A stretch of DNA of 64,000 nucleotides from Psychrobacillus sp. INOP01 (GTDB lineage Bacteria; Bacillota; Bacilli; Bacillales_A; Planococcaceae), in the NCBI RefSeq assembly GCF_018140925.1, contig NZ_CP073315.1:558001-622000 (forward strand). The letters run 5' to 3'. Under the pieces are notes generated by a model that was not told the origin of the DNA, did not search any database, and was given only the letters and a program-made list of their open reading frames with translations. Positions 22,891-24,631 of this stretch are shown one piece after another. Each line of letters begins with the position of its first letter. The stretch's first letter is position 1. A program made the position numbers and the translations under genes.

Positions 22891-22964
22891 GTCTCAGTAG
22901 CTCAGCTGGATAGAGCAACGCCCTTCTAAGGCGTCGGTCGGGGGTTCGAATCCCTCCTGGGACA
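22891..22964 (+). tRNA. tRNA-Arg (anticodon UCU), copy 1
   Basis: Cloverleaf: acceptor GTCTCAG / CTGGGAC, D arm GCTCAGCTGGATAGAGC, anticodon stem ACGCC / GGCGT with loop CTTCTAA (anticodon TCT), T arm GGGGGTTCGAATCCCTC. CCA is not encoded. It reads AGA. A perfect terminator follows. An identical gene lies inverted at 24558-24631. Confidence 0.96.
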
Positions 22965-22978
22965 TACACAAACTTATA

Positions 22979-23020
22979 AAGGCTATACAAGTTGAATCAC
23001 TGACTTGTGTAGCCTTTTTT
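22979..23020 (+). terminator. Terminator of tRNA-Arg copy 1
   Basis: AAGGCTATACAAGT / ACTTGTGTAGCCTTTTTT, 15 bp after the tRNA. Confidence 0.92.
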
Positions 23021-23185
23021 GTGTTATTAAATGTTAGCGCAACCTGGTTCAAAGAGTTTTTGAAGGCTAGTACAAAGCGTAAAGTTGCATTCTGAATTAA
23101 GAATCCTAAACACTTTATATCGAAAAATTATTAGCCTAACATCTAGAAACAACCCTTCTCCTAGTTTGAACTTTAAATAAGAGCA

Positions 23186-23226
23186 TTAGAAAAAAAGGAA
23201 GTCCAAAATAGGACTTCTTTTTCTAA
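23186..23226 (-). terminator. Terminator of the EVE-HNH gene
   Basis: Minus strand GAAGTCC TATTTT GGACTTC followed by CTTTTTTT, inside a longer AT stem ATTAGAAAAA / TTTTTCTAAT. It overlaps the stop codon region. Confidence 0.85.
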
Positions 23227-24140
23227 TGAAATATATTCTTTTTATGCCACTTGAAATACGGTTTATTCTCTTCATATCGAGCAATCTTCTTTTTTTGATA
23301 GATATTGTAAATTAAATAATCATCCTCTGGAATAGAAGCAGAAATATGTAATCTTCCTTGTCCATCAAATGCAATATAACCTTTATTATATAAAGCATCA
23401 TGATTACAGCAAAGGAGTATACCGTTATAAGGATCTATCCTTTCATTATGCGTACTATCTTTCCAAGGTTTAGAGTGACTTGCTTGAAGTAAATCTGGTA
23501 ATACAATATCGCACAAAGCACATTTATTTTCCCACAATGGCAATAAGTCTTCCCTAAACTTTTTTTGGCCTTTACGTATCTTTAATTTTACTTCAGATTC
23601 CATTTCAGCAATCATTGGAATAATGGTGTTACGCTCCGTACGGCGTACTGTACCAATTGCTAATTCAAGCTGCTCCACATCTACTCGGTAGATGTTCAGA
23701 TCACTTATAAGTTCTAATAATTTTATGACAAGTTGTTCATTACAAGGATATAAATAACCTGAATTTCCATTTCCATCCTGTTGAAATGGTGAATACTTTA
23801 TTGGAAGCAGTGTTAAAATCTCATTGAAGTTTAAATGGACATTTAAAGGCTCTTCTAATTCATGATATTCTAGCTCTACTGAATATCCATTATCAGACGA
23901 GTACTTATGACTTTCCATACTTAAAGTCTTAGATATTACCTGACATCCAGTTTTAGCAACACTAATCGCAACAATATTTCCTTTGACATAATGAAAGATA
24001 CGGTCTCCTTCATTTACTTCCTTCATTCTTAGCCATGAATGGGGTACTTGTCCTCCACTGTCTTTTTGTGGAGACCTAATAATACCTAATTCTCTTTCTT
24101 CCTGATATGTTTCTCCTTGCATAACAATGAAGCTTTTCAT
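23223..24140 (-). CDS. EVE/PUA-like domain fused to HNH endonuclease (putative modification-dependent nuclease)
   Basis: 305 residues, ATG at 24140 behind GGGAGTG. N-terminal domain (about 1-135) has EVE/PUA-like features: PHSWLRMKEVNEGDRIFHYV (residues 33-52) then GNIVAISVAKTG, as in readers of modified bases. The C-terminal HNH domain (PF13391-like) has zinc cysteines C197 and C200 (CALC), active-site ASHSKPW (210-216), and NGILLCCNHDALYNKGYI with H237. Together this is the architecture of type IV restriction enzymes that cut modified DNA, so defence is likely; specificity is unknown. It has its own terminator and stands alone between two inverted tRNA-Arg genes, which suggests horizontal acquisition. 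Confidence 0.82.
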   Translation of the reverse strand: MKSFIVMQGETYQEERELGIIRSPQKDSGGQVPHSWLRMKEVNEGDRIFHYVKGNIVAISVAKTGCQVISKTLSMESHKYSSDNGYSVELEYHELEEPLNVHLNFNEILTLLPIKYSPFQQDGNGNSGYLYPCNEQLVIKLLELISDLNIYRVDVEQLELAIGTVRRTERNTIIPMIAEMESEVKLKIRKGQKKFREDLLPLWENKCALCDIVLPDLLQASHSKPWKDSTHNERIDPYNGILLCCNHDALYNKGYIAFDGQGRLHISASIPEDDYLIYNIYQKKKIARYEENKPYFKWHKKNIFH

Positions 24141-24463
24141 TTATAGAACACTCCCTAAATTACAGTTCAATTCAAATACCTCAAAAACCTAATACTATTC
24201 GTAATTTACATTATTTCCGTAACTATAATACCTTCACTTTAATATAACAACATTACAATAGATTCTTAACCCAATTATAGCATTTCAGCTATGATTGAGT
24301 TACGTATTGAAAAATGGTACCTATTCGCTCTGCAATTACCTTAATATTATCTTAAACATAGTATACTTCAAACAAGCTCAGTTTACTTTGTCATAAAAAA
24401 ATCCCCCATTCAATAGAATCGGAAGATAGTTTCGTGTCTGACTTTGCATAAAATGATAGGGAT
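24141..24463. other. Gene-free gap between EVE-HNH gene and tRNA-Arg copy 2 terminator
   Basis: AT-rich, no supported ORF. It should hold the promoter of the EVE-HNH gene. No repeat of families R1-R4 is recognised. Confidence 0.4.
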
Positions 24464-24509
24464 AAAAAAAGGGACTAAGTCTCGGACCGAAGTCCTGACT
24501 TAATCCCTG
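24464..24509 (-). terminator. Terminator of tRNA-Arg copy 2
   Basis: Minus strand GGGATTAAGTC ... GACTTAGTCCC followed by TTTTTTT, about 50 bp after the tRNA. The inner part GGACTTCGGTCC is also a stem. Confidence 0.9.
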
Positions 24510-24557
24510 TCTAATCACAAACTCTTATTTACCAAGAGTTCATAGCCTTTAATATTA

Positions 24558-24631
24558 TGTCCCAGGAGGGATTCGAACCCCCGACCGACGCCTTAGAAGG
24601 GCGTTGCTCTATCCAGCTGAGCTACTGAGAC
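24558..24631 (-). tRNA. tRNA-Arg (anticodon UCU), copy 2
   Basis: All 74 positions are identical to copy 1 at 22891-22964, in opposite orientation. Similarity continues a little upstream (GGGG.G.ACT.GTCTCAG) and downstream (GGGACATA, AAAGGCTAT). CCA is not encoded. Confidence 0.96.

Follow-up and report, generated by a model that had tools for sequence, protein, structure and literature searches.

A likely decayed integrative element at a tRNA-Arg(UCU) gene of Psychrobacillus with a surviving EVE-HNH endonuclease gene

Tycheposons are tRNA-targeting elements that are able to carry complete tRNA genes; they belong to another phylum. Islands and prophages that target tRNA genes with tyrosine integrases resemble the locus described here in their insertion at tRNA-Arg(UCU) and in the direct tRNA-end repeats found in its relatives, whereas the copy studied here appears decayed, its complete second tRNA is inverted, and it has a single cargo gene. 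Published work places Listeria prophages at tRNA-Arg(TCT) (PMC4783014, PMC7006209, PMC4412001) and Lysinibacillus IME8 at a different integration site (yolD), and a Psychrobacillus paper mentions genomic islands solely in a reference. No literature on the Psychrobacillus tRNA-Arg/ysnB locus was found in the paper listings searched. EVE-HNH enzymes, to which the product of the cargo gene belongs, are already known as a class; VcaM4I is reported to flip 5mC/5hmC bases, with H224, N241 and D250 as active residues (PMC7897488).

The window, meaning the whole 64,000-nt stretch of Psychrobacillus sp. INOP01 DNA that was analyzed, was placed in a comparison of 19 Psychrobacillus genomes, one per species, among them its own genome (G000), P. 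antarcticus (G001), P. insolitus (G004) and P. psychrotolerans (G007). The features of the locus are as follows (position in the window, strand, identity), where G005 is another of the 19 genomes:

24716..25222, minus strand: ysnB-type phosphoesterase, the conserved left neighbor (Pfam, genus comparison)
24558..24631, minus strand: tRNA-Arg(UCU) copy 1, downstream of ysnB, the putative attachment site (attL side) (Rfam; ARAGORN gives 24557-24632)
24319..24557, minus strand: left arm of the putative integrative element, with a broken integrase start at its end (match to the left end in G005)
23223..24140, minus strand: EVE-HNH endonuclease gene, 305 aa (ORF, HNH_2 Pfam, 6yex match)
23198..23217, minus strand: terminator-like hairpin of the EVE-HNH gene (terminator scan)
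22978..23017, plus strand: terminator-like hairpin of tRNA copy 2 (terminator scan)
22891..22964, plus strand: tRNA-Arg(UCU) copy 2 (ARAGORN tRNA-Arg(tct), Rfam)
22739..23035, plus strand: right end of the putative element, now inverted, comprising the promoter, tRNA copy 2 and the beginning of the 3′ flank (match to the right end in G005)
20849..22444, minus strand: amidohydrolase, which borders the variable interval on the right in 15 of 19 species (Pfam, genus comparison)

The original prediction described two identical tRNA-Arg(UCU) genes of 74 nt facing each other across 1.6 kb, each with its own terminator, and between them a single nuclease gene, also with its own terminator. The arrangement itself was confirmed: both genes were called by ARAGORN and Rfam, their 74 nt are 100% identical, and the EVE-HNH gene is the only ORF of at least 60 aa between them. 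As for the terminators, hairpins were called for tRNA copy 2 and the nuclease gene, but none was called by the scan behind tRNA copy 1, where an interrupted hairpin followed by a T run is visible by eye at approximately 24507-24464. The inverted repeat is 87 nt long, its arms (22880-22966 and 24556-24642) being 97% complementary and separated by 1589 nt, and chance is therefore excluded as its origin. It reaches 11 nt upstream of the tRNAs; outside it, the 5′ flanks of the two genes differ, as do the 3′ flanks. The genome holds no other full copy of tRNA-Arg(UCU). Structural phage genes, which would mark a prophage, are absent from the interval between the tRNAs with its one ORF of this size.

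The EVE-HNH label proved correct even though Pfam detected HNH_2 alone in the window protein, with no EVE match, because the whole protein matches VcaM4I. The VcaM4I structure (PDB 6yex) was the top match by sequence (6.6e-39, residues 5-304) and by fold (Foldseek, 2.6e-25), where, with an AlphaFold model of pLDDT 82, it was followed by EVE-type and YTH folds; the TM-score against 6yex was low (0.42, rmsd 15-17), which we attribute to a difference in how the model arranges the domains. The protein thus combines an N-terminal EVE and a C-terminal HNH in one chain. It matched the PADLOC HNH model at 1.3e-22, and scored 36 of 180 bits, far below the cut-off, with the NCBIfam model for restriction of phosphorothioated DNA. 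The HNH residues H222, N239 and D248 align with the catalytic H224, N241 and D250 of VcaM4I, and E15 also aligns with one of its named residues. From the VcaM4I base pocket (P24, W82, Y130), P24 and Y129 match, and W82 corresponds to Y80 in a variable, low-confidence stretch; S127 stands where VcaM4I has Q128. Homology is full-length, with the EVE fold preceding HNH, but the two proteins are 27-30% identical, and at the places aligned with C207, C210, C244 and H247, which are invariant in 20 aligned relatives and may bind zinc, VcaM4I has only the first. By analogy with VcaM4I, the N-terminal EVE most likely flips and binds modified cytosine and the C-terminal HNH most likely cuts the DNA. The gene is predicted from this homology to restrict phages with modified cytosine, and the full-length relationship is in keeping with the defense-type nuclease that had been proposed.

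Alignment A1 contains 20 EVE-HNH relatives (L076, which has a stop, L082, with a frameshift judged by length, and L083, which is partial, were left out). Its column for H222 holds His in 7 sequences, Tyr in 12 and Arg in 1, and many relatives without the HNH histidine may be inactive or may use another residue. This distribution and the stop or frameshift copies at 2 of 22 loci (L076; L082, whose match length is not a multiple of three) would suit a decaying passenger without restriction activity. That reading is unlikely for the window gene, however: its ORF is intact, the histidine is present, the gene has a terminator-like hairpin of its own, and it has been kept in three species at 84-86% identity.

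Across the 19 genomes, the gene order is racE-rdgB-ysnB, followed by a variable interval with tRNA-Arg(UCU), nearly always directly behind ysnB, and then by the amidohydrolase gene in 15. The interval leads straight to a TPR protein in G004, G008 and G018, and the right side was not reached in G017. Measured from ysnB to the right anchor, it is as short as 0.8 kb in G013 and reaches 30 kb in G002; in G017 it exceeds 90 kb. At least two full copies of tRNA-Arg(UCU) are present in 17 of the 19 genomes, all at the ysnB locus (one copy in G006 and G016, three in G015), and the copies are identical within the genome in 14 of these 17. Outside the genus, tRNA-Arg(UCU) was found behind ysnB in 13 of 21 loci, and interrupted in 3 more; these loci were the best-scoring fetched ones among a larger genome set. 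Because it occupies the same place in other genera, the ysnB-side copy is likely ancestral.

The genes between the copies vary widely. GerA-type germination operons lie there in G011 and G015, EVE-HNH of G007 is accompanied there by a zinc-type ABC transporter and a metal repressor, and NAD-related and metabolic genes occur in G010 (6 ORFs) and G003 (3 ORFs); in G014, a two-component and citrate transport set lies behind both copies. In the other species, what the variable interval carries is not specific to defense. The EVE-HNH gene is present in 8 of 19 genomes, in 7 of them within the variable interval, and lies between two tRNA copies in four only (G000, G001, G007 and G005). A weak match of G006 DNA to the end of EVE-HNH (E 0.005) was not counted. 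With the tRNA pair in 17 of 19 species and such different cargo, the pair was therefore not made for the EVE-HNH gene.

Two side observations concern this cargo. GerA-type spore germination operons between tRNA-Arg copies were seen at L040, L042 and L041, with a GerAC fragment in the same place in G009, and G018, G012 and G002 have ORFs there whose sizes, by size comparison only, match GerA operons. At the G007 locus (L036), the arm sequence behind tRNA1 is partly repeated before EVE-HNH (2670-2868 and 6743-6834), across the zinc-type transporter operon, as if that operon were a later insertion.

These counts bear on the suggestion that the locus is a compact defense island formed by tRNA duplication, with inverted copies serving as an inversion switch. 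The 87-nt inverted repeat and the inverted copies in 4 of the 17 multi-copy species (G000, G001, G007 and G008) are what it would predict, but the copies are in direct order in the other 13, 8 of which have no EVE-HNH gene. In all three species that combine inverted copies with EVE-HNH, the gene points the same way, and since the tRNA promoters would lie outside the interval, an inversion would not act on them as a switch. We regard this origin as very improbable. A tie between EVE-HNH and tRNA duplication was rejected on the frequencies given above, as was the switch on the single gene orientation; neither the defense island nor the tRNA-driven inversion of the original prediction was upheld, and no flipping was seen.

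Comparison with G005 points instead to an integrative element. There, a 331-aa tyrosine integrase (Pfam Phage_integrase) lies just behind tRNA1, followed by an EVE-HNH gene whose product is 74% identical to the window protein, and a full second tRNA closes the 22-kb stretch. With the tRNA left out of the count, 243 bp of window DNA behind tRNA1 match its left end at 79%, and 97 bp of the match (75%, E 4e-16) fall inside the G005 integrase ORF as called, approximately 76 bp of them after the likely ATG. In the window, the likely start codon of the integrase remnant is at 24394, its fourth codon is a stop, and the similarity ends at 24319. Similar remnants were found in G007 (143 bp at 83%, E 7e-35), G001 (91 bp at 71%, E 7e-11) and G006 (36 bp at 75%, E 2e-4), the E-values being pairwise ones from small searches; a profile search for integrases in G000, G001, G006 and G007 did not detect the short remnant. 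At the other end, the block around tRNA2 matches the right end of the G005 stretch in the opposite orientation (75% over 301 bp, of which 74 bp are the tRNA itself), and the 150 bp upstream of tRNA2 in G000, G001, G005, G007 and G014 fall into a single cluster at E 1e-6 with the tRNA excluded.

We therefore consider it quite probable, though short of firm, that the locus is a decayed tRNA-Arg integrative element with surviving EVE-HNH cargo. Next to the tRNA 3′ end, where an element of this kind would have its tyrosine integrase, the window has the broken start alone, whereas the gene is intact in G005 and G017. Such an element would also repeat the tRNA 3′ end in direct orientation at its opposite boundary, but in the window the second copy is inverted; this inversion, unlike the order in intact relatives, counts against the element reading, and because of it the locus is called a rearranged remnant and not an intact element. 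In G014, the nearest species by path in a species tree built without G001 (whose contig cuts rdgB), tRNA2 and its promoter, which match the window at 91% over 136 bp with the tRNA counted in, follow tRNA1 directly oriented at a distance of 95 bp, and the nuclease gene is missing. This makes the direct order the likely older one and the inversion of tRNA copy 2 probably secondary.

What is observed is the conserved site, the similarity of the arm and of the right end, the broken integrase start and an intact relative with the same order; the order of events and the cause of the inversion are inferred. The ancestral element would have had the order tRNA, integrase, cargo with EVE-HNH, promoter and complete tRNA, and its tyrosine integrase would have inserted it at the 3′ end of tRNA-Arg(UCU), at the ancestral site that separates ysnB from the amidohydrolase gene. 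Later, the integrase and most of the cargo would have been lost and the right end with its tRNA inverted, so that two tRNA copies, the EVE-HNH gene and a left arm with the broken start of the integrase remained. The odd tRNA arrangement would then be a scar of mobile-element decay, and the locus an example of a lone defense gene outliving its vehicle.

An alternative without an integrase is that the interval varies by homologous exchange between the duplicated tRNAs and the core flanks, the similarity of the arm being that of a conserved tRNA terminator. The flanks of 37 copies form 17 downstream clusters vs. 3 upstream clusters, and the copies are mostly identical within a genome, both in agreement with exchange. 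In addition, G016, with one tRNA, has approximately 80 bp behind it that resemble the G001 tRNA2 flank, as crossing over within the tRNA would give (the 162-bp match includes the tRNA, and the flanks do not cluster at E 1e-6). However, the homology passes the terminator into the integrase ORF, same-family integrases occur at tRNA-Arg or tmRNA in many genomes, and, within a small control set, the arm matched only flanks that bear an integrase. The window arm matched 11 of 15 integrase-bearing arms, G005 among them (four showed no match), and among 14 other-genus tRNA-Arg 3′ flanks it matched at E < 1e-3 in 3 of 10 with an integrase and in 0 of 4 without; with four integrase-free flanks this control is small and weak, and by itself not decisive. 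Exchange as the sole process is an improbable account, and integrase insertion and homologous exchange may both act at the locus.

G017 has a 66-kb insertion that runs from a complete tRNA to a 34-nt tRNA fragment, with an integrase at its left end. As a side observation, a further integrase-like remnant lies behind the 34-nt repeat (G017:C30, L044, L054, L055, L106, L107), perhaps a sign of stacked insertions at one tRNA.

In the EVE-HNH phylogeny, the window gene shares a clade with the P. antarcticus and P. psychrotolerans genes (support 100/99), which the P. insolitus gene joins next (99/98), and the copies of G002, G011 and G012 form a separate clade with a Lysinibacillus copy (100/99). 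Identity among the three species that have both the inverted layout and the gene is similar to that of the neighboring ysnB and amidohydrolase genes, and in this layout the gene seems to have been passed on vertically. The comparison of related strains proposed earlier gave a divided answer: close relatives have the tRNA, not all have the gene, and the layout with the gene looks vertical. A general tie of EVE-HNH to tRNA-Arg was rejected, as none of 19 loci outside Psychrobacillus had tRNA-Arg(UCU) nearby (flanks up to 10 kb a side, some shorter).

Relatives of the G005 integrase were found in 60 of 200 genomes of the bacterial family at E ≤ 1e-30, representing 14 of 19 genera. Among 30 fetched integrase loci, 14 were at tRNA-Arg(UCU), 13 at tmRNA and 3 had no call; one of the latter, L114, is the interrupted tRNA-Arg of G085 (15 counting it). 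The proposal that the tRNA serves as an integration site is borne out by these 14 loci. A second, direct tRNA 3′ end was sought in a selection of 17 genomes that have the integrase at tRNA-Arg, namely the 14, G085, whose tRNA is interrupted, and two picked by their coordinates, G102 and G051 (G062, G075, G040, G035, G003 and G017 were left out). It was present on the same contig, 4.5-32 kb away, in 14 of the 17, on another contig in G082, and not found in G114 and G102. These 14 second copies comprised 8 fragments, 1 copy of nt 14-73 and 5 complete tRNAs, and always included nt 48-73. A phage-database search with the integrase returned 17 records, all below 60% identity and none covering 80% of the query.

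Twelve elements were fetched for a cargo survey (the G085 element as its first 20 kb only; ORFs < 100 aa were left out). For the PADLOC scan, the first 10 proteins were chosen by eye; the rule was then set at the two longest cargo ORFs per element, to which 8 of the 10 conformed, and the other 16 were scanned. Of these 24 ORFs, 12 matched PADLOC at E ≤ 1e-5, some weakly or generically, and 6 of 12 elements had a strong defense-like match (E < 1e-13): SpbK-like TIR, PDC-M68B (two elements, one of them also with ThsA), ThsA, a type IIG restriction enzyme, HamB and a retron-associated phosphoribosyltransferase. A G121 ORF chosen by eye matched PADLOC HNH at 2.3e-26 and the window protein at 42% over 149 aa. 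As a control, 10 ORFs were drawn at random from the window's 30 longest, and a single one gave a match, a strong one (BrxL, 2.8e-18); this ORF lies beside clpX and is presumably the Lon protease. With so small a control and PADLOC matches that can be generic, the enrichment of defense genes in the elements is suggestive only.

We tentatively propose, at somewhat less than even confidence, that small islands specific for tRNA-Arg(UCU), or for tmRNA via sister integrases, are major anti-phage carriers in this family, that some carry a complete tRNA-Arg with its promoter, so that each integration duplicates the host tRNA, and that their decay leaves single defense genes flanked by tRNAs. The region behind tRNA-Arg(UCU) next to ysnB is a searchable hotspot, and new anti-phage genes may lie there in several genera of the family.

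Some further observations concern RNA genes and the integrase family. At L087 (2082-2440), L088 (1051-1408, minus strand) and L102 (1058-1396, minus strand), which align with each other, the tRNA-Arg(UCU) behind ysnB is interrupted inside the anticodon. The insert of approximately 285 nt in the L087 tRNA scored 23.2 bits (E 7e-4) with an Rfam group I intron model, below the gathering score, and the group I intron search of the interrupted tRNA gave no match at that score. An integrase of the same family, with an uninterrupted ORF, lies beside tmRNA in the window's own genome (L124, G000:C1:996489-997475). Within the window, a Bacillaceae-1 RNA (RF01690) was found above its gathering score at 19146-19213 on the minus strand.
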